Assembly (NCBI RefSeq): GCF_024055725.1
Contig: NZ_JAMXMX010000021.1
Location: 62,001 to 126,000 of the forward strand
DNA length: 64,000 nucleotides
From: Actinoallomurus spadix
GTDB taxonomy: Bacteria; Actinomycetota; Actinomycetes; Streptosporangiales; Streptosporangiaceae
Direction of reading: 5' to 3'
In this document: positions 5,844 through 25,609 of the stretch, piece after piece
Layout of the letters: every line of letters begins with the position of its first letter
Position numbering within the stretch: the first letter of the stretch is position 1
Program-made: the position numbers and the translations under genes
Notes under the pieces: model-generated
What the model saw: only the letters and a program-made list of their open reading frames with translations
Databases searched by the model: none
Told to the model about the DNA's origin: nothing

Positions 5844-7265
5844 TCAGCGGGCGGAGGTCACGGCGTCGTACAGGACGGCGGTCGGGTGGTCCGGGGTGAG
5901 CGTCGCGGGCGCGGGGCCGGAGACGAACGAGGCACCGGGCAGGTCGTTCCGGCCGAGGAAGAACGCCCGGTTGATCGCCTGCACCTTGATGGTCGCGCCG
6001 GTGTCCTTCGCCGTGGCGGGCACCCGGATGCCGACGATCTCGGCCACGTCCGACGGCGTCGTCCCGGGCGGAAGCTGCACCGTCGTCGCCGCGGGCAGGT
6101 CCCGGTTGATGGACCGGTCGGGGAACAGGTGGTCCGAGCGGTACAGGGTCGAGTCGCCCTTGAGCCGTACGCCGATGGACAGCCCGACCCAGTCGGTGCC
6201 GTTCGGCGGGTCGAGGGTCTGCTTGCGGACCACGAGGTACAGGTAGTCGCGCGGGTCGGCGATCAGGGTCTGTGAGGTCGTCGGCGGGTCCGCCGCGACG
6301 CGCCCCTCCCGGCGCGCCTCCGCCGCCGCCACCCAGTACGTCCACGGGTTGCGGTCCATGATCTGCTCACGGGCCTCCGTGGTCGCGTCGAGCGTCTGCG
6401 CGGTGGACAGCGAGAACCGCATCGGGTCGTCGACCTTGTCGCAGATGTTGTTGTTGAGCGTGCAGGTCTGCAGCAGCGGGTGATCACCCTCGTACGTGCC
6501 GGCGAACTGCTGCGTGACGTGGTTGGGCGCCTGGAAGACGGCGGTGCCGGGCACCCGCCGGCCCCGCGCGTCGACCTCGACCTGGTAGATCCACTCGATG
6601 TCGGTCGTCCGGCCCCAGCGCGCCATGAGCTGCGGGGTTGACGTCCCGCCGTCCTCGTTGCTCCAGATGTAGGAGTAGGTCAGCAGGCGGTGCCCCGGCG
6701 TCGAGGCGGGTACGTCCTCGTGCCAGGCGACCAGCGGCGTGTCCGTGGCGGCGTTCTGGAACGGCCCGGTCGAGCTGCCCCCGGTGCCGTCGCGGCCGTA
6801 CAGCACGGGCGCGTGCGCGAGGTCGGTGTACGCCGGCGACCCGGCCGCGACCGTGCGGAACGCCAGGCGGCTCACCCGTACGCTCCGGCCCGGCGACCGG
6901 TCTGCGGCCAGCCGTAGCCGCAGCGTGTGGCGGCCGGCCCGCAGCCGGCCGAGGGCGAACTCCCGGGTGATCGGGAAGTCGGCGGGGACCACGTCGTCCG
7001 TGGCGTACCGGCCGTCGACGTACAGGGACAGGACGGCCGACTCACGGCCCTTGACGGCCCAGGACACGCCCGGAGCCGCCGCGGTGACGGCGGCGAGCAC
7101 CTCACCGTCGTGACCGGTCCGGAAGGTGATCGTGCGGTCGTGACCGCGGTCGACGGCCGTGACGCCGGCCGGCGTCACGGCCGCCCTGGCGGGGGCCACG
7201 ACGGCTCCGGCGAGGGTGAGGGTGAGGACCGGCACGGCCACACGAGTGAGCGGAACGTTGGGCAC
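5844..7265 (-). CDS. exported protein of unknown function, 473 residues
   Basis: I do not recognise a family. The start is GTG at 7263-7265 because an exact AGGAGG lies 5 bases upstream (complement 7271-7276); an ATG 20 codons earlier lacks this. The first about 28 residues form a Sec signal peptide (basic start, VAVPVLTLTLAGAVVA core, PARA cleavage site). The mature part has a beta-rich region with alternating hydrophobic/Arg runs (GRHTLRLRLAADRSPGRSVR), as in carbohydrate-binding modules, then a Trp/Tyr-rich central region (TYSYIWSNEDGG, RWGRTTDIEWIYQVEV) with one likely disulfide pair in TCTLNNNICDK. An extracellular carbohydrate-related role is only a guess. A 27-base palindrome covers the ribosome site, suggesting tight control. 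Confidence 0.7.
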   Translation of the reverse strand: MPNVPLTRVAVPVLTLTLAGAVVAPARAAVTPAGVTAVDRGHDRTITFRTGHDGEVLAAVTAAAPGVSWAVKGRESAVLSLYVDGRYATDDVVPADFPITREFALGRLRAGRHTLRLRLAADRSPGRSVRVSRLAFRTVAAGSPAYTDLAHAPVLYGRDGTGGSSTGPFQNAATDTPLVAWHEDVPASTPGHRLLTYSYIWSNEDGGTSTPQLMARWGRTTDIEWIYQVEVDARGRRVPGTAVFQAPNHVTQQFAGTYEGDHPLLQTCTLNNNICDKVDDPMRFSLSTAQTLDATTEAREQIMDRNPWTYWVAAAEARREGRVAADPPTTSQTLIADPRDYLYLVVRKQTLDPPNGTDWVGLSIGVRLKGDSTLYRSDHLFPDRSINRDLPAATTVQLPPGTTPSDVAEIVGIRVPATAKDTGATIKVQAINRAFFLGRNDLPGASFVSGPAPATLTPDHPTAVLYDAVTSAR

Positions 7266-12110: not shown

Positions 12111-13879
<1,769 letters not shown>

Positions 13880-14208: not shown

Positions 14209-16581
14209 ATGACGGGGGCATCCGAGACCACCCGGCCCGGACAGATTCACGGCGTCCCGGCCGAGGTGACGAGTTTCGTCGGGCGTCGGCACGAGGTGGC
14301 CGAGGTCAGACGGCTCCTGTCGATCTCCCGACTCGTCACGCTGTGCGGCGTCGGCGGAGTCGGCAAGACCCGCCTGGCCGCCCGCGTGGGCACGCTGGTC
14401 CACCGGGCGTTCCCCGACGGCGTGTGGCTGGTCGAACTCGCCGCGCTGAACGATCCCGGCCTGCTGGTCCCGGCGGTGTGCGAGGCCCTGCGAATCCCCG
14501 ATCGTTCGGTCCGTCCGCCGCTGCGGATGCTGATCGACCACCTGGAGGACGCGCAGGCCCTGCTCATCCTGGACAACTGCGAGCACCTGGTGGGCGAGTG
14601 CGCGGTCCTGGCCGAGGCGCTGCTGCGCTCCTGCCCCGGCCTGCGGATCCTGGCCACCAGCCGCCAGTCCCTCGGCATCGCCGGCGAGCAGACCCTGTTC
14701 GTCCCCAGCCTGCCGGTGACCGGTCACGCGGTCGCCGGCTCCCACTCCATCGTCGTCGGTGACGCCGTACGGCTGTTCGCCGAGCGCGCCGAAGCCGTCG
14801 TCCCCGGCTTCACCCTCACCGAGGACAACCGCGAGACCGTCGAACGCATCTGCCGCCGCCTCGACGGCCTGCCGCTGGCCATCGAACTGGCCGCCGTACG
14901 CCTGCGCGCCCTGTCGGTCCACCAGCTCCTCGCCCGCCTCGACGACCGCTTCCGCCTCCTCACCTGCGGATCCCGCACCGACCTCCCCCGCCACCAGACC
15001 CTCAGCGCCCTCATCGGCTGGAGCTACGGCCTGTGCACCGCACCCGAACGCCTCCTCTGGCAACGCGCCTCGGTCTTCTCCGGCGGCCTGGACCTCGAAG
15101 CCGCCGAAACCGTCTGCGCCGGCGACGGCATCGCCCGCGAGGACATCCTCGAACTCGTCATCGGACTCGTCGACAAATCCGTCCTCCTCCGCGAAGAACA
15201 CTCCGGCACCGTCCGCTACCGCCTCCTGGAGACCATCCGCCAATACGGCCACGAACGCCTCACCGCCTCCGGCGACCAGCCCCGCGTCCAACGACGCCAC
15301 CGCGACCACTACCGCGACCTCACCGCCCGCGCCGAACACGAATGGTTCGGCCCCGCCCAGATCGCCTGGTTCGACCGGCTGCGCACCGAACACCCCAACC
15401 TGCGCACCGCCCTGGAGTACTCCCTCGGCACGCCGGGCGAGAGCTCCGCCGGCCTGAGGATGGCCTCCGACCTGCTGTTCTACTGGATCGCGGCCGATCT
15501 CCTCAACGAGGGACGGCGATGGCTCGAGAAGCTGCTCGACACCGGCACCGACACCGGTGACTCCGCTCCGGCCGCCCGCGCCGCCGCCCTGTGCGTGCAC
15601 GCCCGGCTGGCCGTCCTCCAGGGCGACCTCGCGGCCGCCCGGCCGATGCTCCGGGAGAGCCGGGCCCTCGCACGTGACCAGCCGGTCGTCCTCGCCCAGT
15701 GCGAGTACGTCACGGGCCTCGCCGCGCTGATCAGGTCCGACCTGCACGGAGCCGTGGCCGTCCTGGAGGACGCGCTGACGCGCCACCGCGCGCTGTCGCA
15801 CGAGAAGGGTGTCGCCAACTCGTCGATGTACCTCGCCACGGCGTACTCCCTGCTCGGCCGTTCCGAGGAGGCCATCGCCCTGTTCGACGAGTGCCTGCGG
15901 CTCTGCGAGTCGAGGCAGGACCACTGGTTCCGCTCCTACGCGTTGTCCGTCTACGGGATCGAAATCTGGCGGCGGGGCGACCTCAAGCGCGCGACGGAGC
16001 TGGAGCAGCGCGCCATCCGCCTCAAGCAGCCGTTCGACGACCGTCTCGGCATGGCGCTGTGCGTGGAGGTCCTGGCCTGGATCGCCGCCGACGAGGGCGA
16101 CCCGGAGCGCGCCGCCCGCCTCCTGGGAGCGTTCCGGGAGATCCGGCGCGCGGTGGGCGGCCCCCCGTACGCGTACCTCGCCGGGTACCGCGAGCAGTAC
16201 GCGACGGCGATACGGGACCGCCTCACCGCCACCAGATTCGACGCGCTCTTCCAGGAGGGGGCCGGTCTCTCGCCGGCGGAGACGACGGCGTACGCGCTCA
16301 GGGAGGCCGAGGCCGAGACCGCGCCGGGCGCTCCCGCCGGGCGCGCCCTGTCGCCGCTGACGCGCCGGGAGACGGAGGTCGCCCGGCTGGTGGCGAAGGG
16401 GATGAGCAACAAGGAGATCGCCGCCGCACTCGTCGTCGCCCAGCGCACCGCGGAAGGTCACGTGGAGCGCATCCTGCGCAAACTCGGCTTCAGCTCCCGC
16501 GCGCAGATCGCCGCGTGGGTCGCGGAGCTCAACGAGGAGGCGCCCGGCTCCGAGCCCGGAGGCGCCCAGGGCCGCCGGTGA
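14209..16581 (+). CDS. STAND-type ATPase transcription regulator with C-terminal LuxR HTH
   Basis: A 790-residue regulator. Seen: an NB-ARC-like ATPase with Walker A GVGGVGKT (residues 47-54), Walker B LLILDNCEHL, sensor ILATSRQSLG and the GLPLAIELAA motif; a long helical TPR-like middle; and a C-terminal LuxR DNA-binding domain (LSPLTRRETEVARLVAKGMS, then NKEIAAALVVAQRT). Such proteins oligomerise on ATP when a ligand or partner binds the repeats, then activate transcription. The ATG at 14209 begins shortly before the conserved TSFVGRRHEV; an upstream in-frame ATG at 14020 adds 63 Arg/Pro-rich residues unlike this family. A paralogue without the HTH lies at 19623-21701. The input signal is unknown. 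Confidence 0.9.
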   Translation: MTGASETTRPGQIHGVPAEVTSFVGRRHEVAEVRRLLSISRLVTLCGVGGVGKTRLAARVGTLVHRAFPDGVWLVELAALNDPGLLVPAVCEALRIPDRSVRPPLRMLIDHLEDAQALLILDNCEHLVGECAVLAEALLRSCPGLRILATSRQSLGIAGEQTLFVPSLPVTGHAVAGSHSIVVGDAVRLFAERAEAVVPGFTLTEDNRETVERICRRLDGLPLAIELAAVRLRALSVHQLLARLDDRFRLLTCGSRTDLPRHQTLSALIGWSYGLCTAPERLLWQRASVFSGGLDLEAAETVCAGDGIAREDILELVIGLVDKSVLLREEHSGTVRYRLLETIRQYGHERLTASGDQPRVQRRHRDHYRDLTARAEHEWFGPAQIAWFDRLRTEHPNLRTALEYSLGTPGESSAGLRMASDLLFYWIAADLLNEGRRWLEKLLDTGTDTGDSAPAARAAALCVHARLAVLQGDLAAARPMLRESRALARDQPVVLAQCEYVTGLAALIRSDLHGAVAVLEDALTRHRALSHEKGVANSSMYLATAYSLLGRSEEAIALFDECLRLCESRQDHWFRSYALSVYGIEIWRRGDLKRATELEQRAIRLKQPFDDRLGMALCVEVLAWIAADEGDPERAARLLGAFREIRRAVGGPPYAYLAGYREQYATAIRDRLTATRFDALFQEGAGLSPAETTAYALREAEAETAPGAPAGRALSPLTRRETEVARLVAKGMSNKEIAAALVVAQRTAEGHVERILRKLGFSSRAQIAAWVAELNEEAPGSEPGGAQGRR

Positions 16582-16597
16582 TCCGGGCGGTCTCCGA

Positions 16598-17677
16598 TCA
16601 CCACCCGGCGGCGGAGACGGCCTGGAGGGCCGTGTGGCCGTCGCGGAGCAGGGCGACGGCCCGGGGGAAGTCCGTGAGCTGTTCGGCCAGCAGGTCCAGC
16701 GCCGGCGCGAGCGAGTGCGCGGGAACACCACGAGCGGCGAGGATGCCCGCGGTCCAGGTGATGAAGCGGGTGAACAGCCCGGCGTCGTCCAGGTACAGGG
16801 CGGCGCCAAGGAACTCGGTGACGTAGACGAGGTCCTCGGCGGTGTGCCGGCGCTGCCGGTCGTTGTAGCCGGCCATCGCCGGGAGGCGTTCCGGGAGCGC
16901 GGCGAGGACCGCCGTGGCGAGCCGGTGCGTGGTGCGGGTGACGAGGGTGTACTCCTGGTCGGCCAGGTGCGGCAGGTCGTTCAGGGGCTCGTGTGCGGGC
17001 GGCGGGACGTACGGCCGGGCGAGGATCTCCTCCAGGCGGACGGCCGCCGTACGGGCGTCGGGGGCCCAGGCGTCGGCGCCGAGCCGGTCGGCGTAGCGGC
17101 CACCGGGGCCGAACGCCGCCCCGCCGGCCATGACGGGGACACCCGCGGCCTGGGACGCGATGATCGCCGCGTGGGCGGCGGGCAGGCGGATGGGGATGGA
17201 GGACGACAGGGCCAGCGTGTCGGGGCGGGTGCGGTGCAGGTGATCGATCAGGTTGGGGACGGGCACGTGCGCGCCGAGGAAGTCCACCCACCGGCCTCGC
17301 AGCCGCAGCGTCTCCGCCAGCAGGCGGGCGGGCAGGGCGTGCCACTCCCCCTCGACGCACGCGACCGTGACCCGGCCCCGCCGCGGCCGCCGGGTCTCGT
17401 CGGGCCCGTGGTGGGCCAGGGCGGCGATGACGCGGTCGTTGATGGCCGTCGCGGTGTGCTCCTGGGTGACGCTGATCCGGTTGGCGGCCCACTCGGTACC
17501 CGCCTTCGCCTGGGCCGGCGCGATCACGTCGAGGAGGGCGGACTCGGCGTCCAGGCCCGCGTCCACCGCCGACAGCACGACGTCGGCGGCGGCGTACTCG
17601 TCGCCCTCGCGGACGGCGTCCCACAGCCGCGCGGACAGCGCCTGTGTGCGGACAGGGTCCGATTTCGAAGCGGTCAT
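16598..17677 (-). CDS. CarH/AerR-like B12-binding sensor without DNA-binding domain
   Basis: A 359-residue cobalamin-binding protein. Seen: a helical cap with the photoreceptor motif Wx9EH (W63, E73, H74), then a Rossmann B12 domain with ExHxxP (E111, H113), LALSSS near 157 and MAGGAAFG near 184, matching the DxHxxG...SxL...GG pattern except that the first Gly is Pro. In Thermus CarH the same Trp/Glu/His cap adenosylcobalamin and His177 is the lower ligand; the His that follows the Trp there is Ala64 here. No MerR helix-turn-helix is present. A C-terminal helical domain (about 225-359) may bind a partner. Its ATG overlaps the stop of the upstream SpoIIE phosphatase, so both are made together. 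Light or B12 sensing is inferred. Confidence 0.82.
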   Translation of the reverse strand: MTASKSDPVRTQALSARLWDAVREGDEYAAADVVLSAVDAGLDAESALLDVIAPAQAKAGTEWAANRISVTQEHTATAINDRVIAALAHHGPDETRRPRRGRVTVACVEGEWHALPARLLAETLRLRGRWVDFLGAHVPVPNLIDHLHRTRPDTLALSSSIPIRLPAAHAAIIASQAAGVPVMAGGAAFGPGGRYADRLGADAWAPDARTAAVRLEEILARPYVPPPAHEPLNDLPHLADQEYTLVTRTTHRLATAVLAALPERLPAMAGYNDRQRRHTAEDLVYVTEFLGAALYLDDAGLFTRFITWTAGILAARGVPAHSLAPALDLLAEQLTDFPRAVALLRDGHTALQAVSAAGW

Positions 17678-19365
17678 CGCCGGATCTCCTCATCGTTCGC
17701 GCGCCGCACCGCCGCCGTGGGGGAACCGGTGTGCGGTCCGCTGATCGCCACGACGGCCATGTCGTCGTGGTCCCGGTTCCCCGCCCATTCCGCCGCGAGC
17801 ATCTGCACCCGCTCCACCACGGCCTCGGCCGGCATCCCCCCGCATTCGGACAGCGCGTCCTTCAACCGCTCCTCACCGAACATGACGTCACCGAGCGGCC
17901 CGCCGCGCGCCTCGGTGATGCCGTCGGTGTACAGCACGCACGTCTCCCCGGGCCCCAGATCGACCCGGACGGTGGTCGCGTGGACGTCGGTCATGGCGCC
18001 GATCAGGGAACCGCGGGTGGGAGCCTCCTCGACGACGCCGCCGGAGCGCACGATCAACGGCGGTGGATGCCCCGCGCTGGTCAACCGCAACCGCACCCGG
18101 TCACCGTCCCGCACCGCGGACGCGAGCACCAGCGTGGCGAACCGGGTCGACTCCGTGGTGAGCAGTGCCGCGTTGAGCAGGGACAGCAGGCGGTAGTGGT
18201 CGCCCGCCACGGGCAGGAGCGCCCGCAGCATGTTCCGGATCTTGAAGGTGGTGACCGCCGCCTCCAGGCCCTTGCCGCACACGTCACCGAGGATCACGAG
18301 GGACTCGGCGCCCTCGTCCTCACCGGGATGCACGTCGTAGAAGTCACCGCCGATCAGCTCGCTGCGCACCGACGCGCGGTACCCACCGGCGATGTCCACA
18401 CGGTGGACGCGGTGCAACTGGGGCGGCAGCATCTCACGCGTGAGGATGGTCATCACCTCCGTCCGCTCGGCGTAGGCGCGGGCCGCCGACAGCGCCGCGC
18501 CCGCCCGCGCCGCGAACAACCGGGCGAAGACCTCGTCGTTCCGGCTGAACCCGGACTCGTCGCCACGGCGGAGCAGGATCAGCGCGCCCTCGGGGATGCC
18601 GTGCCCGGGCAGTGGGGTGACCACGACCGCGCCGACCGGCCCGTCGAACTCTTCCGGCACGGCCCACGAGGGCAACCCGCCAGGGTCGATCCAGCGGGAG
18701 GAAGTCGGCGGAAAACCCTGCAGCGCCTCGGTCAATCCGGGCACCTCGGCGGAGTCGTCCGGCACCGTACGGCGGTGGACCGTGCCACCGCGAAGGGCGA
18801 AGACCGCCGGCAGCCGCTGTCGTGAAGCCGCGGGCAGGATGACGACCGCGTCGGCCAGATGCTCGGCCGCCAGCCGCGCCGTGACCTCCAGGCACCGGTC
18901 GACGGTGAGCGCCGACAGCATGGCGTACGACTCGTCCGCGAGGAGTGCCGTGCGCCCTCGCTCCCTGGACAGAGCGATCTCCGCCTGCCGCCGGTCGGTG
19001 TCCTCGACCAGCCACCAGGCCGTGTCCCCGTCCGGTGTCCGGGTCGGAAGGGCGTCGAAGCTCCGTTCCCCCACCCGGCCCCACACCGGTTCGCCCTCGG
19101 CCCCGGACGCCGCCGCGGTGCGGTGCGCCTCCGCGAGCCACCCGGGCATCATCGCGCCGAGGCTCGCCCCCGGCTCCGCGCGCGGGAACAGCCGGGCGGC
19201 GGCCTCGTTGAGCTCGAGCACCCGGCCGCCGGCGTCGGCCACCACCACCGGGCACGGAGCGGCTTGCCACAGCGCGCCGGCGGCCCGCTCCTGGCCGGGC
19301 CGGTCCTTCGAAGGAACGCCGGTAACGTCCACGTGCCAGACCCGCGGTCTCGCGGGTCTTCCCAC
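17674..19365 (-). CDS. PAS-GAF SpoIIE-family PP2C serine phosphatase
   Basis: A 563-residue cytosolic phosphatase, of the kind that dephosphorylates STAS anti-anti-sigma proteins. Seen: an N-terminal PAS-like domain (PVVVADAGGRVLELNEAAAR, about 35-110), a GAF-like domain (about 140-310) and a C-terminal SpoIIE catalytic domain with metal-binding motifs IGGDFYDV, LGDVCGKGLEAAV, LYTDGITEARGG and DHDDMAVVAI; all key Asp are present, so it should be active. The start is GTG at 19365 just after GGAGAAG; a second GTG at 19332 is possible. The stop overlaps the ATG of the B12-binding gene (ATGA). No STAS protein, RsbW kinase or sigma factor is adjacent, so the target is unknown. Confidence 0.92.
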   Translation of the reverse strand: MGRPARPRVWHVDVTGVPSKDRPGQERAAGALWQAAPCPVVVADAGGRVLELNEAAARLFPRAEPGASLGAMMPGWLAEAHRTAAASGAEGEPVWGRVGERSFDALPTRTPDGDTAWWLVEDTDRRQAEIALSRERGRTALLADESYAMLSALTVDRCLEVTARLAAEHLADAVVILPAASRQRLPAVFALRGGTVHRRTVPDDSAEVPGLTEALQGFPPTSSRWIDPGGLPSWAVPEEFDGPVGAVVVTPLPGHGIPEGALILLRRGDESGFSRNDEVFARLFAARAGAALSAARAYAERTEVMTILTREMLPPQLHRVHRVDIAGGYRASVRSELIGGDFYDVHPGEDEGAESLVILGDVCGKGLEAAVTTFKIRNMLRALLPVAGDHYRLLSLLNAALLTTESTRFATLVLASAVRDGDRVRLRLTSAGHPPPLIVRSGGVVEEAPTRGSLIGAMTDVHATTVRVDLGPGETCVLYTDGITEARGGPLGDVMFGEERLKDALSECGGMPAEAVVERVQMLAAEWAGNRDHDDMAVVAISGPHTGSPTAAVRRANDEEIRR

Positions 19366-19622
19366 CTTCTCCCCCGGTCGGAACGGCGCCCTGGGACGAC
19401 CGTCCCCTCCTCGCGGCGTCGAGACCGCCTCTTTGCCACACTAGTGCCGCGTCAAGCGAGGCCGGTCCGTGCCCGTACGCGGGGCAAGGTCGCGGCCGCG
19501 CTCGGTGGTCACCCGGCGGCTTGCGGACGGGCCGGCGCGGCGCACGCTGCGTAGACTCGGGTTCGGGCCCCCGCTCGCGCACCGCGGCGCGGGCCGCGGG
19601 ACTCGGTGAAGAGGCTCACGAT

Positions 19623-21701
19623 ATGCCTGCTCAGGGCACGCTGACCAGGAACGGCCTGCATACCGACAATTCGAGTTTCGTAGGCCGTAGACGCGAGATG
19701 TCCGAGGTGAGACGGCTCCTCCCGCGGACACGTCTACTGACGCTGACGGGTGCCGGCGGTGTCGGCAAGACACGGCTCGCGCTCCGTGTCGCGCGGGCGG
19801 TGCGGAGCTGGTTCCCCGACGGAGTGCACGTCGTGGAACTCTCCACGCTGGAGGAGGGGCGGCTCCTCGTCCCGACCGTGGCCGCCGCCGTGGGAATCCG
19901 GGAGATGGATGGCCAGGCGATGCCGCTCCTCGTGGCCCGCCTCGCCGACAAGCGGATGCTGCTCCTGCTGGACGGCTGCGAACACCTCCTCGACTGCTGC
20001 ACCGATCTCGTGGACCGGCTGCTGCGCGGCGCCCCGCGCCTGCGGATCATGGCCACCAGCCGTCACCGGCTGGGCGTGCTCGGCGAGCACGTGCTGCCGA
20101 TCTCGTCCCTGCCGGTCGCCGACCGGCACGCTCCGGCCCGCGAGATCGCCCGGTGCGAGGCCGTACGCCTCTTCACCGACCGGGCCGGCATCGTGTGCCC
20201 GGGCTTCCGCGTCACCTCCGCCAACGCGCCCATCGTCGCCCGCATCTCCCAGCGCCTCGACGGCATCCCCCTGGCGATCGAGTTGGCCGCCGCCCGTCTG
20301 CGGGCCACCCCGCTCGACCGGCTCCTGGGCGAGCTCGACGACCGCTTCGCCGTTCTGACCGACGGCGACAGCGACGCGCCGCCGCGCCAGCAGACGCTTC
20401 GCGCCACGATCGACTGGAGCCACGGCCTGTGCTCCCCCGCCGAACGCCGGCTGTGGGCGCGCCTGGCGACCTTCCCCGGCGGAGCGGACCTCGACACCGC
20501 CGAGGAGGTCTGCCCCGGCGGGGAGATCGGCCGGGGGGAGATCTTCGACTTGATCGCCGGACTGGTGGACAAGTCGGTCCTCATCGCCGAACGTTTCCCG
20601 GCCGGCCTGCGGTACCGCATGCTGGACAGCATCCGCGCGTACGGCCGCGAGAGACTGACCGGCGCGGAGAAGGAGCGGCTGCGCGGGCGGTACTGCTCCC
20701 ACTACAGGTCGCTGGTCGCACGCTGCCGGATCGATCAGATGACTCCCGACCAGCTCGACCGGTTCCACGCGCTGCAGCTCGAGCTGCCGAATCTCCGCGC
20801 GGCGATGGAGACGTGTTATGGCCGGCCGGCCTCGGCGCCCGCCGGGTTGGAGGTCGCCTCGGCCCTGTGGAGCTTCTGGCTGCTGGCCGGGGCCCTCACC
20901 GAGGGACGGCACTGGCTGGAACGGGGCCTGCGGCTGGTTCCCGCGCCCGGTAGGGCGCGGCTCACCGCCTTGTGGGCCGACGCCCTGCTCGCCCTGCACC
21001 AGCGTGATCTTGCCGCGGCGGTCATCCGGATCGAGGAGTGCCGGGCGCTCGCCGGGGAGACGGGGGACGCCACGGCGGCGGCGTTCGCCACCATGGTCTC
21101 CGGCATCGCCGCGCTGGCGGCCGGGGACGATCGCCGCGGGCTCGCGCTCATGGAACAGGCCCGGCGCCGCCACTGGGAGGACGGGGATCTCAACGCCGTC
21201 GGGATCAACCTCTATCTCGCGTCGACGTTCTGCGTCGCCAAGGACCCGGACCTCGGGGCGGCTTTGGGCGAGGAGCTCGTCGCCCTGTGCGACGCGCGGG
21301 ACGCGCCGCTGTTCCGCGCGTACGCGTTGTTCGCGGTGGGGATCGCGGCGTGGAAACAGGGCGACTGGCGGCAGGCGGAGGCGATGATGCTGCAGGTGGC
21401 CGAGCCGTGGTCCGTCATCGAGGACCGCTGGGGGCTCGCCCAGTTCCTCGAGGTGCTGGCGTGGACGGCGAGCGCCGGCGGCGCCCAGGAGCGCGCGGCC
21501 CGCCTGCTCGGCGCGGCGGACCGGGTCTGGCATGAGCTGGGTTTCTCGCCGACCCAGCTGCCGTACCACGTCCGCTCGCACCAGCAGTGCGAGACGCACG
21601 CCCGTGAGGCGCTGGGCTCGCGGGCCTTCGCGCGGGAGTTCCGCGCCGGCACGCGGCTGGACCTGTCCGCCGCGGTCGCCGACGCCCTCAGCGGACGCTG
21701 A
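19623..21701 (+). CDS. STAND ATPase with TPR-like region, lacking a DNA-binding domain
   Basis: A 692-residue paralogue of the gene at 14209-16581. Seen: SSFVGRRREM at the start, Walker A GAGGVGKT (43-50), Walker B LLLLDGCEHLL, sensor IMATSRHRLG, GIPLAIELAA, then about 350 helical TPR-like residues. It ends DLSAAVADALSGR with a TGA, and no LuxR helix-turn-helix follows in any frame before ftsY. The ATG at 19623 comes after GTGAAGAGG; earlier in-frame codons give a low-quality extension. Either the DNA-binding domain was lost, or the protein acts by binding other proteins, perhaps its full-length paralogue. It lies divergent from the SpoIIE/B12 operon across 257 bases. Confidence 0.85.
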   Translation: MPAQGTLTRNGLHTDNSSFVGRRREMSEVRRLLPRTRLLTLTGAGGVGKTRLALRVARAVRSWFPDGVHVVELSTLEEGRLLVPTVAAAVGIREMDGQAMPLLVARLADKRMLLLLDGCEHLLDCCTDLVDRLLRGAPRLRIMATSRHRLGVLGEHVLPISSLPVADRHAPAREIARCEAVRLFTDRAGIVCPGFRVTSANAPIVARISQRLDGIPLAIELAAARLRATPLDRLLGELDDRFAVLTDGDSDAPPRQQTLRATIDWSHGLCSPAERRLWARLATFPGGADLDTAEEVCPGGEIGRGEIFDLIAGLVDKSVLIAERFPAGLRYRMLDSIRAYGRERLTGAEKERLRGRYCSHYRSLVARCRIDQMTPDQLDRFHALQLELPNLRAAMETCYGRPASAPAGLEVASALWSFWLLAGALTEGRHWLERGLRLVPAPGRARLTALWADALLALHQRDLAAAVIRIEECRALAGETGDATAAAFATMVSGIAALAAGDDRRGLALMEQARRRHWEDGDLNAVGINLYLASTFCVAKDPDLGAALGEELVALCDARDAPLFRAYALFAVGIAAWKQGDWRQAEAMMLQVAEPWSVIEDRWGLAQFLEVLAWTASAGGAQERAARLLGAADRVWHELGFSPTQLPYHVRSHQQCETHAREALGSRAFAREFRAGTRLDLSAAVADALSGR

Positions 21702-21749: not shown

Positions 21750-22919
21750 TCAGCCGCCCAGGATGGCGTCGACGAAACCTTCGGGGTCGAAGGGCGCGAG
21801 GTCGTCGGGTCCCTCGCCGAGCCCGACGAGCTTGACCGGGACGCCCAGCTCTCGCTGCACCGCGATGACGATGCCGCCCTTGGCGGTGCCGTCGAGCTTG
21901 GTCAGCGCGATGCCGGTGACGTTGACGACCTCGGCGAACACCCGGGCCTGGCGCAGACCGTTCTGCCCGGTCGTCGCGTCCAGAACGAGGATCACCTCGT
22001 CGACCTCGGCCTGCTTCTCGACGACGCGCTTGACCTTGCCGAGCTCGTCCATCAGCCCGGTCTTGGTGTGCAGCCGGCCGGCGGTGTCGACGATGACGGT
22101 ATCGACGCGGTCCTCGATGCCCTTCTTGACCGCCTCGAACGCGACGCTCGCGGGATCGGCGCCCTCCTCCCGGCGCACCACCTCGGCGCCGACCCGGGAG
22201 CCCCAGGTCTGCAGCTGATCGGCGGCGGCCGCGCGGAACGTGTCGGCCGCGCCGAGGAGGACGGTGCGCCCGTCTCCGACGAGGACCCGTGCGAGCTTGC
22301 CGCAGGTGGTGGTCTTGCCGGTGCCGTTGACGCCGACGACCAGCATCACGGCGGGCTGGGCGCCGTGCGGCCGGGTGCGCAGGGAGCGGTCCCAGTCCTT
22401 GCCGATCTGGGCGAGGAGCTCGTCCTTCAGCAACCCGCGCACCTCGTCCGGGGTGCGGGTGCCGTAGACCTTCACCTTGGTCCGCAGGTCGTCGACGATC
22501 TGCCGGGCGGGCGCGACGCCGACGTCGGCCTGCACCAGGGTGTCCTCGATCTCGTCCCACGCGTCGTCATCGAGCGTGTCGCGGGACAGCAGGATGAGGA
22601 GGGTCTTGCCGAGGGCGTTCTGGGAGCGGGAGAGCCGTGCCCGCAGGCGGATGAGGCGACCGGCGGACGGCGGCGGGATCTCGATTGCGGGCGGTGCGGG
22701 CGGCGCCGGAGGCGCCTCGGGGGTCGGCGCGCGCGTGGGCGGCGCGACGGCCTCTTCTTCCTCGATGACGGCGGTGCCGCCGCGCGGCGCCTCCGGCGCC
22801 TTGGGCGCTTCCGGTGGCCGGGGCGGCGCAGCGGCGCCGCGCGCACCCCGGACCAGGAAGAACACGCCCGTCGCGACGGCGAGCACGACGATGGCGATGG
22901 CGAGAATGACGTATTCCAT
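21750..22919 (-). CDS. ftsY: signal recognition particle receptor FtsY
   Basis: SRP receptor GTPase, 389 residues, that docks Ffh-ribosome complexes at the membrane. Seen: an N-terminal membrane segment (YVILAIAIVVLAVATGVFFL, the single-helix anchor usual in actinobacteria), a Pro/Ala/Glu-rich linker (about 30-85), the N domain, and the G domain with GVNGTGKTTT, DTAGR and TKLDGTAKGG. The ATG at 22919 gives MEYVILAI, directly starting the anchor. In related genomes ftsY sits near smc; here a globin/DivIVA operon separates the two and the STAND ATPase gene converges on it from the left. Confidence 0.98.
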   Translation of the reverse strand: MEYVILAIAIVVLAVATGVFFLVRGARGAAAPPRPPEAPKAPEAPRGGTAVIEEEEAVAPPTRAPTPEAPPAPPAPPAIEIPPPSAGRLIRLRARLSRSQNALGKTLLILLSRDTLDDDAWDEIEDTLVQADVGVAPARQIVDDLRTKVKVYGTRTPDEVRGLLKDELLAQIGKDWDRSLRTRPHGAQPAVMLVVGVNGTGKTTTCGKLARVLVGDGRTVLLGAADTFRAAAADQLQTWGSRVGAEVVRREEGADPASVAFEAVKKGIEDRVDTVIVDTAGRLHTKTGLMDELGKVKRVVEKQAEVDEVILVLDATTGQNGLRQARVFAEVVNVTGIALTKLDGTAKGGIVIAVQRELGVPVKLVGLGEGPDDLAPFDPEGFVDAILGG

Positions 22920-23789: not shown

Positions 23790-24902
23790 TTAAGCGTCCG
23801 CGTACTTGTCGATTCGGATGCGGTCGTGGCTCAGCCCGAGATTCAGGAGGCGATCGACGGTCGCGTCGGTCATCCCCGGCGAGCCGCAGACGTAGGCGTC
23901 GTGGTTCTGCCACATCCCGAACCGCCCGATGACGTCGGGCAGCGTGCCGTGCTCGGCCACCGCCCCGGGATCGTGGTCGGAGACCGCCGGGATCACGGTG
24001 AGCCACGGCGCTCCGGCCGCCCGCTTCTGCAGATCGTCCAGGTCGTAGAGCCCGTCCACGTACCGCGCGCCGAAGAACAGGTGGACGCGCGGCGGGCTGG
24101 GCAGCGCGCCGATCTGATCGAGGATCGCCTTGAGCGGCGCCAGGCCCGTGCTGCCGCCGATGAGCAGCACGTCACGTCCGGACCGCTCGTCGAAGGTCAT
24201 CGTGCCGACCGGCGCGCTGAGCTTGATCCAGTCGCCGACCCTCAGCGACCGGACGAGGACCGGGCTGACGGGGCCCCCGTCGATCAGCTGCACGTGGAAG
24301 TCCACGGTGTTGTCGGGCCGGGGGGCGTTGGCCATCGAGTAGGAGCGCCACATCCGCATCCGGGCCGGAACCTCGAGCGAGGCCGACTGGCCGGGCTGGT
24401 ACGCGAACGGCCGGTCGGGAAGGACCCGGAACACCGCCAGGTCGAAGCGCCGGCGCTCGTGCGCGACGATCTGGGCGTTCCACCAGGACGGGTTCACTGA
24501 GGAGTCCTGCTGGGCCGCGTCGAGCATGACCTTCGAGACCAGGTTGTAGGCATCGGTCCAGTCCCGCGCCAGTTCCTCGGTCCACGAGGATCCCGAGAAG
24601 TAGCGAAGGGTGGTGACGAGGCTCGCCCCGACTTCGGGATAGTGCAGGGCCTCCACTCCGAACTTGCGGTGATCCCGGCCGAGCTGTTGCACGAACGGAA
24701 CCAGGTTGTGCAGGTCGTCCACCTGGGACACGATGCGCCCGAGCGCGGACAGCAAGCGGTCGCGCTGGGTGCTCATGCCCACGGGGAACATGTCCCGTAG
24801 GCGCGGGTTGCGCAGGAAGAGATCGGAGTAGAAGAACAGCGCGACGGCGTCACCGTGCTGCGCCACCTGAGCGAAGTTGTCCTTCAGTCGTTGAGCATCC
24901 AC
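23790..24902 (-). CDS. flavohemoglobin-type globin/FAD/NAD reductase
   Basis: A 370-residue flavohemoprotein that probably converts nitric oxide plus oxygen to nitrate using NAD(P)H. Seen: globin domain (1-135) with Tyr25 (B10), Gln46 (E7) and proximal His78 in GRDHRKFGV; FAD domain with the RSYSMANAP flavin motif (about 192-200); NAD domain with VLLIGGSTGLAPLKAIL; C-terminus YVCGSPGMTD. It is somewhat shorter than Hmp (about 395). The N-terminus MDAQRLKDNFAQV nearly repeats that of the single-domain globin immediately upstream, suggesting tandem duplication of the globin part. Middle gene of globin-flavohemoglobin-DivIVA. Confidence 0.92.
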   Translation of the reverse strand: MDAQRLKDNFAQVAQHGDAVALFFYSDLFLRNPRLRDMFPVGMSTQRDRLLSALGRIVSQVDDLHNLVPFVQQLGRDHRKFGVEALHYPEVGASLVTTLRYFSGSSWTEELARDWTDAYNLVSKVMLDAAQQDSSVNPSWWNAQIVAHERRRFDLAVFRVLPDRPFAYQPGQSASLEVPARMRMWRSYSMANAPRPDNTVDFHVQLIDGGPVSPVLVRSLRVGDWIKLSAPVGTMTFDERSGRDVLLIGGSTGLAPLKAILDQIGALPSPPRVHLFFGARYVDGLYDLDDLQKRAAGAPWLTVIPAVSDHDPGAVAEHGTLPDVIGRFGMWQNHDAYVCGSPGMTDATVDRLLNLGLSHDRIRIDKYADA

Positions 24903-24941: not shown

Positions 24942-25343
24942 CTACTTCTGTTCAGCGGCCTTGATCATGACGTCGGAGACGACCCCGTACGCCTCGACCC
25001 AGTCCTTCTCCAGTTCGGGGGTCCAGTCGTCGCCGCTGAAGTACTTCAGCGTCGCGACGAGGCTGGCGCCGACCTCGGGGTAGTGCTCGGGGTTGATGCC
25101 GAATCCGGCGTGCGCCCGGCCGAGCTCCTCCAGGTACGGGACGAGCCTCTCCGGGTCGTCCACCAGCGACACGATCTGGGTGAGCGCGCCCAGCAGGACC
25201 TCCTGCTGCCGCCTCATCGAGGCCGGGAACAGGGGGCGGTAGTGGGGGTTGCGCTCGAACAGGTCCGCGTAGAAGTACTCGGCCACGTCCATGCCGTGCC
25301 CGCCGACCTGGGCGAAGTTGTCCTTGAGACGTTGAGGGTCCAC
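24942..25343 (-). CDS. single-domain globin
   Basis: A 133-residue haem globin of the flavohemoglobin-like class. Seen: Tyr25 (B10) in YFYADLFERNP, a Gln at 46-47 (E7 area) and proximal His78 in GRAHAGFGI. The GTG at 25341-25343 is used because GGAAAGG precedes it and VDPQRLKDNFAQV aligns with the first residues of the neighbouring flavohemoglobin; an ATG further upstream adds 48 residues that do not look like globin. Without its own reductase it might bind oxygen or nitric oxide and be re-reduced by the reductase encoded 39 bases downstream. The AT-richer region before it (25390-25460) should hold the operon promoter. Confidence 0.88.
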   Translation of the reverse strand: MDPQRLKDNFAQVGGHGMDVAEYFYADLFERNPHYRPLFPASMRRQQEVLLGALTQIVSLVDDPERLVPYLEELGRAHAGFGINPEHYPEVGASLVATLKYFSGDDWTPELEKDWVEAYGVVSDVMIKAAEQK

Positions 25344-25453
25344 AGTGACCTTTCCGAGGGTGTCAGTCGTGCCGTGAGGGACGGCGGTGACTCTAGCGAA
25401 GCCAAGCGCGATTCGGGACACGATGGTACAAAACATGCAAATTGATTGCCGTA

Positions 25454-25477
25454 CCGGCCTTGTGACGACAAGACCGG
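25454..25477. promoter_or_regulatory. inverted repeat upstream of the globin operon
   Basis: CCGG, one base, CTTGT, four bases, ACAAG, one base, CCGG: a 24-base near-perfect dyad beside an AT-rich stretch about 110 bases before the globin GTG. It could be an operator for a nitric-oxide or redox regulator. No such regulator is adjacent, and a weak terminator for another transcript is also possible. Confidence 0.4.
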
Positions 25478-25609
25478 AGAATCCCACCTTAGGCCGGATC
25501 CACGGGCCGGTCAGGACGGTTCAGGCATCGATCGACTCGTTTCACCGGGGCGGGACAGGGGTTGCTGGACCGGTCCACCCGGCCGTCTGAGGGGTGTTCC
25601 CGACCTTCG

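Follow-up and report, generated by a model that had tools for sequence, protein, structure and literature searches.

A probable two-gene light-signalling operon for a SpoIIE-type phosphatase and a predicted photocobilin between amtB and ftsY of Actinoallomurus spadix

The locus was analysed within a stretch of 64,000 nucleotides of the Actinoallomurus spadix genome (G000, 8.02 Mb; contig positions C13:62001-126000), which we call the window and whose numbering is used throughout. Four genes lie in the interval between amtB (12446-13879, minus strand) and ftsY (21750-22919, minus strand). These two border genes were assigned by synteny and by Pfam, the Pfam names agreeing with amtB (Ammonium_transp, E = 7.5e-130) and ftsY (SRP54 GTPase with SRP54_N domain). 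STAND1 (14209-16581, plus strand) encodes a STAND ATPase of 790 residues with Pfam matches to AAA_22, TPR and GerE. It is followed on the minus strand by the gene for a B12-binding protein of 359 residues (16598-17677; Pfam B12-binding_2 and B12-binding, with a predicted bilin-binding globin region at the C-terminus) and by that for a SpoIIE/PP2C-type serine phosphatase (17674-19365; Pfam SpoIIE, E = 2.5e-42). A divergent intergenic region (19366-19622), in part conserved with Actinoallomurus soli (G004), separates the phosphatase gene from STAND2 (19623-21701, plus strand), which encodes a STAND ATPase with AAA/NB-ARC-type Pfam matches only. The four genes and their positions, as proposed in the initial annotation of this DNA, could be confirmed by open reading frame coordinates, Pfam and NCBIfam.

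Pfam and NCBIfam also bore out the proposed LuxR tail of STAND1 and the lack of a DNA-binding domain in STAND2. The GerE domain of STAND1 occupies residues 716-770, and together with the STAND NTPase and the TPR region it makes the protein a LuxR-tailed STAND regulator, as in the AfsR/MalT kind. STAND2 differs from that kind by having no DNA-binding tail; neither an HTH family nor a TPR family was found in it by Pfam at E <= 0.01. A role of the STAND proteins in defence was rejected: with PADLOC, STAND2 had no match, and STAND1 had weak ones confined to its LuxR tail. Elsewhere in the window, a gene of flavohaemoglobin type (23790-24902, minus strand; Globin, FAD_binding_6, NAD_binding_1) lies beside a globin gene (24942-25487, minus strand).

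The phosphatase gene is the first gene of the pair and starts with a GTG at 19365; a GTG at 19317 is possible too. Five aspartates of the phosphatase (D341, D361, D481, D534, D535), which we take to be metal ligands, are invariant among 45 aligned sequences (that of the window and 44 from the related loci described below), and the aspartates of the SpoIIE domain are thus present. The PAS-GAF-SpoIIE architecture given in the initial annotation held for the SpoIIE domain. The PAS match is weak, its E value of 6.5e-4 not reaching the Pfam cut-off. GAF was detected in 23 of the 45 aligned phosphatases, the window's protein, which has a GAF-like region, not being among them. A SpoIIE/PPM domain behind a sensory N-terminal region is common to this protein and the SpoIIE/RsbU phosphatases of Bacillus subtilis (PMC11418112). 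The window's phosphatase differs from these in that a separate photoreceptor appears to be encoded next door.

The best PDB matches of the B12 protein are 8j2x and 8j2w, both SasPcob of Saccharothrix syringae (E about 1e-72, residues 17-353), followed by 8j2y (E = 2e-40). These structures are named photocobilins and hold adenosylcobalamin (AdoCbl) and biliverdin (PMC10979010). Besides SasPcob, an Acidimicrobiaceae photocobilin, AbDPcob, is described, and the window's protein has the same domain order and the same six contacts as these. The published key residues are Trp61, Glu71-His72, His108, Asp270 and Trp296 (PMC10979010). In the alignment to SasPcob, for which paper numbering equals PDB chain number plus 6 as a constant offset, all six cofactor contacts are kept as W63, E73, H74, H113, D282 and W308. 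The first four lie in the W-(x)-EH (W63, E73-H74) and E/DxH (E111-W-H113) motifs, which are tied to light-responsive B12 domains (PMC10979010, PMC11796333). The other two are the bilin-domain contacts (D282 to Asp270, W308 to Trp296), and the alignment reaches residue 353. Among the 45 aligned sequences, W63, E73, H74, H113 and W308 are invariant and D282 is conserved in at least 90%. The C-terminal region is therefore, by sequence, a globin-like bilin-binding one, and the protein qualifies as a photocobilin, for which AdoCbl and biliverdin binding and a response to light are predicted. Its nearest named relatives are two copies in A. soli (78 and 79% identity).

The initial annotation had called this protein CarH-like. 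Its B12-binding domains stand, and the label undersells the C-terminal third, whose counterpart in the alignment is the bilin-binding globin domain of photocobilins. CarH shares the B12-binding core with the W-EH and E/DxH motifs and the His ligand; the window's protein differs by having the globin region instead of a MerR domain. Membership of the CarH family was rejected, as Pfam finds the two B12-binding families only; the NCBIfam CarH score, 48.8 bits, is below the cut-off of 400. PDB chains titled 'probable transcriptional regulator', which we take to be CarH, match at E = 3e-5 to 3e-4 only. A vague 'B12 sensor' is thus replaced by a named type of photoreceptor.

To follow the pair through other genomes, related loci were gathered with the B12 protein alone as query, and the best 80 of 283 were kept. 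They carry the genus labels Streptomyces (45), Mycobacterium (10) and Actinomadura (5), the other 20 loci being spread over eleven further labels, and two genomes contribute two loci each (L008/L009 and L026/L077). A phosphatase like that of the window is encoded directly upstream on the same strand in all of the best 80 loci. In the window the stop codon of the phosphatase gene and the start codon of the photocobilin gene overlap by 4 nt (17674-17677, minus strand), which points to translational coupling; when the nearest photocobilin start is taken, 75 of the best 80 loci have this overlap as well. The five others are L069, where the 4-nt option is available too, L078, where a single open frame contains both matches, and L027, L047 and L057, which have other nearest starts. 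The coupling of phosphatase and B12 protein that the initial annotation had noted is thereby borne out. Among 296 genomes of the phylum that were drawn separately, 12 besides that of the window had a photocobilin match at E <= 1e-30. All seven loci of the same class in this draw have the phosphatase directly upstream and a gene for a STAS anti-anti-sigma protein next door; 120-base probes of these seven occur in none of the 80 loci. Seven loci from five genomes outside the class (33-40% identity) showed neither a phosphatase nor a STAS gene within roughly 1.5 kb on each side.

A STAS gene follows the photocobilin gene on the same strand in 66 of the best 80 of the 283 loci. The STAS profile was built from 28 of these 66, which leaves 38, together with the seven same-class loci drawn separately, as the independent part. 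One match (L073) is weak at 26.5 bits, and 19 of 20 third-gene members tested match Pfam STAS and STAS_2. An operon of SpoIIE phosphatase and photocobilin, in most cases with a STAS gene after it, recurs in various actinobacterial genera. With the STAS gene in the same operon, most relatives of the window's pair resemble the SpoIIE/RsbU modules; the window's operon is without STAS. No kinase or sigma-factor gene was identified as conserved beside the operon.

In most relatives the genes are arranged as SpoIIE-photocobilin-STAS, which agrees with a light-gated partner switch whose sensor, phosphatase and substrate come from one message. Phosphatases of the SpoIIE/RsbU class (PPM) dephosphorylate STAS proteins (PMC11418112). 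A photocobilin, when lit, changes its assembly and activates an enzyme domain in vitro, even as a separate protein (PMC10979010). We consider it fairly probable that 16598-19365 is a two-gene light-signalling operon with the phosphatase as the photocobilin's target and a STAS partner switch as output, the STAND genes probably being neighbours. The second gene would provide a standalone photocobilin holding AdoCbl and biliverdin, and the first a putative PAS-GAF-SpoIIE phosphatase as its direct target, presumably through physical contact. In the dark, the AdoCbl-loaded photocobilin would keep the phosphatase in one activity state. Light would break the Co-C bond and alter the assembly of the photocobilin, which would switch the phosphatase; the switched enzyme would then dephosphorylate a STAS anti-anti-sigma protein and so free a sigma factor. 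This STAS protein would be the product of the third gene in most relatives and presumably come from elsewhere in the genome in the window's case.

That a cobalamin or light signal acts through protein partners and not through a MerR domain, as the initial annotation had it, is probably correct by analogy with the in vitro behaviour of photocobilins (PMC10979010). It knew of no described system with this composition, but the SpoIIE link is one that has been described. SasPcob is likewise a standalone protein, and SpoIIE, STAS and PP2C partners have been predicted for it in Saccharothrix (PMC10979010), so both the photocobilins and these partners are already in print. For the three-gene operon SpoIIE-photocobilin-STAS we found no description in the literature searched; a photoglobin paper of 2022 may contain one. 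The operon suggests a natural partner for photocobilins of the standalone type, the function of which is called less clear in PMC10979010. With three co-encoded proteins, a light-gated partner switch in streptomycetes is a directly testable question.

The supply of the second chromophore was addressed with the heme oxygenase family PF01126. It was found in none of the eight genomes of the genus (G000 to G007), three of which carry a photocobilin (G000, G002 and G004); a control search detected it in 3 of 14 genomes. When nine photocobilin carriers were searched together, PF01126 was present in five (four genomes of genus g3, and G211) and not found in G045, G081, G002 and G004. The window's protein, known from its sequence, thus differs from the characterised photocobilins in belonging to a genus in which no PF01126 was found. 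The bilin may be made by another enzyme or taken up from the surroundings; alternatively, AdoCbl may be the only cofactor with which the protein works. SasPcob without biliverdin acts inversely, its dark form activating and its lit form inhibiting (PMC10979010). Given this and the lack of PF01126 matches in the genus, the sign of the light effect, which we infer, may differ here.

The same result could mean that the B12 protein reports cobalamin status instead of light, AdoCbl binding alone setting the activity of the phosphatase. With no heme oxygenase of PF01126 in the eight genomes the second chromophore may be missing, and AdoCbl binding lowered the activity of a fused enzyme relative to the apo form (PMC10979010). 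However, the W-EH and E/DxH light motifs are kept (PMC10979010, PMC11796333), as are the bilin contacts D282 and W308, for which a pure B12 sensor has no need, and we consider a cobalamin-status sensor rather unlikely.

Under the preferred reading as a light-signalling operon, a substrate has to be found for the phosphatase in the genus. A STAS gene is absent beside all four Actinoallomurus operons, namely that of the window, G004:C59 (L141, the same as L008), G004:C6 (L140, the same as L009) and G002:C19 (L139). The linked gene is also missing more widely, in 14 of the best 80 of 283 loci and in several genera: besides Actinoallomurus, in 3/3 loci of Amycolatopsis, 3/5 of Actinomadura, 1/1 of Spirillospora and 5/45 of Streptomyces. 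A phosphatase with an unlinked substrate is thus a recurrent state, and the substrate of the window's enzyme is probably encoded elsewhere in the genome. At least nine weaker relatives of the operon STAS family were seen there when 150 of 351 first-look candidates were scored. The best of them reaches 69 bits, whereas most operon members score 120-200 bits, on another model than the genome relatives, so that no clear unlinked STAS orthologue was seen. The window's genome also has 95 matches to PF13581, a family that contains anti-sigma kinases but also catches other ATPases.

With STAS absent at all four genus operons, one might instead see an orphan or decaying module here, a pair left without output. 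The operon proteins are only 77-78% identical to those of G004:C59, as against 97% for the flanking amtB and ftsY. But the pair shows no damage to its two reading frames, its 4-nt overlap, its conserved aspartates or any of the six cofactor residues, and linked STAS is lacking in the other genera just listed. Decay is therefore highly unlikely.

The initial annotation had joined the phosphatase/B12 pair and the two STAND ATPases into one signalling unit and had proposed a search of actinobacterial genomes for co-occurrence of the four families. Among the loci related to the pair, the linkage turned out not to be conserved. Full-length homologues of STAND1 and STAND2 occur near one of the best 80 of the 283 operons (L008), and a profile of the STAND NTPase region likewise finds L008 only; 64 of the 80 loci have about 10 kb on both sides, and 16 have less. 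A 45-bit match at L077 was rejected as a STAND relative, being a response regulator with a LuxR domain. Within the genus, the four-gene arrangement is present in two of eight genomes, that of the window included. G000 and G004 share the order amtB, STAND1, photocobilin, SpoIIE, STAND2, ftsY with the same orientation, and their operons are sisters in the tree (support 100/100), so that the arrangement probably arose once.

The interval has STAND genes of its own. A LuxR-STAND gene lies in the amtB-ftsY gap of seven of the eight genus genomes, in five of them without the operon: G001, G002 and G006 have a single gene, G007 has two in tandem, and G003 has one split over contig ends, its amtB-STAND-ftsY order being read across the contig break. 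Four of these five genomes showed no photocobilin match above 50 bits anywhere. In G005 there is no STAND gene in the gap, and about 215 bp separate amtB and ftsY. Homologues of STAND2 are found in G004 (86%) and on G003:C10 (59%), where the gene stands directly behind a LuxR-STAND gene in a genome with no photocobilin match. The operon may have been inserted into a tandem STAND pair. However, two clades are seen among the STAND genes of the gap, which makes replacement or differential loss an equally likely explanation. The assembly of G003 is interrupted within two LuxR-STAND genes, each time at the same internal stretch (about residues 58-330; contigs C10, C28, C38, C44), which suggests near-identical copies of this stretch.

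It is thus probable that STAND1 and STAND2 belong to the amtB-ftsY interval and are only neighbours, not members, of the light module; a conserved STAND link to such a module was not seen outside the genus. In favour of a single unit of pair and STAND ATPases are the shared order, orientation and sister operon in G004, and the missing STAS gene leaves an output open. The two other operons of the genus, which have no STAND1 or STAND2 orthologues, are also near STAND-class regulators. At G004:C6 an AAA_16-LuxR protein of 953 residues is encoded about 2.3 kb upstream of the phosphatase (L140:7184-10045, the same as L009:3177-6038), and at G002:C19 a BTAD-AAA_16 gene faces the photocobilin gene (L139:4944-7951), with TPR repeats in a second frame; the latter gene appears broken near 6290. 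Yet the STAND-class regulators within about 2.5 kb of the four genus operons represent three dissimilar subfamilies, an argument against a common mechanism. The rarity of STAND1 and STAND2 homologues near the best 80 operons and the five gaps with a LuxR-STAND gene and no operon also count against a single unit. We regard one unit as quite improbable.

Wider queries of LAL and BTAD type added two of the 80 loci with a STAND-class or BTAD gene, L009 from the same genus and L053 (BTAD), the latter giving a rate of 1/78 outside the genus operons. With a STAND-class regulator near all four genus operons, a functional link becomes slightly more likely. STAND and LuxR-tailed genes are plentiful in the genus, however: six of the eight genomes have 11-23 STAND2 matches and the other two 3 and 6, and there are 26-98 STAND1 matches in each, many of them LuxR tails alone. 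Proximity by chance is therefore possible. It is very doubtful that the output changed in this genus, with STAS lost and the pair acting on nearby STAND-class ATPases (STAND1 and STAND2 here, other subfamilies elsewhere). If it did, assembly of a STAND transcription regulator would be controlled by light or B12.

As to the origin of the light-signalling operon, trees of the phosphatase and of the concatenated proteins group the Actinoallomurus operons with those of streptomycetes, mycobacteria and Amycolatopsis and separate them from those of Actinomadura and Nonomuraea (supports 99-100). The photocobilin tree gives no clear answer on this placement. We take the grouping as a hint of horizontal transfer.

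In the upstream regions of 80 operons, namely the window's and those of 79 loci (L079 being excluded), patterns resembling SigB, sigma-70 and LitR sites were no more frequent than in shuffled sequence. A palindrome of the form TTGCC-n-GGCAA was not found in the window between 14001 and 22000. Upstream of the phosphatase gene in 22 of the best 80 loci, among them L016, L020, L022 and L085, the palindrome TTGCC-N4-GGCAA lies about 59-72 nt before the estimated start, with 0.1 occurrences expected from mononucleotide shuffling. A MarR-like gene is located downstream of the operon in 16 of the 80 loci (15 Streptomyces, 1 Streptantibioticus; one member was checked by Pfam). The palindrome is carried by 14 of these 16, and it is a candidate autoregulatory operator of the loci with a MarR-like gene.
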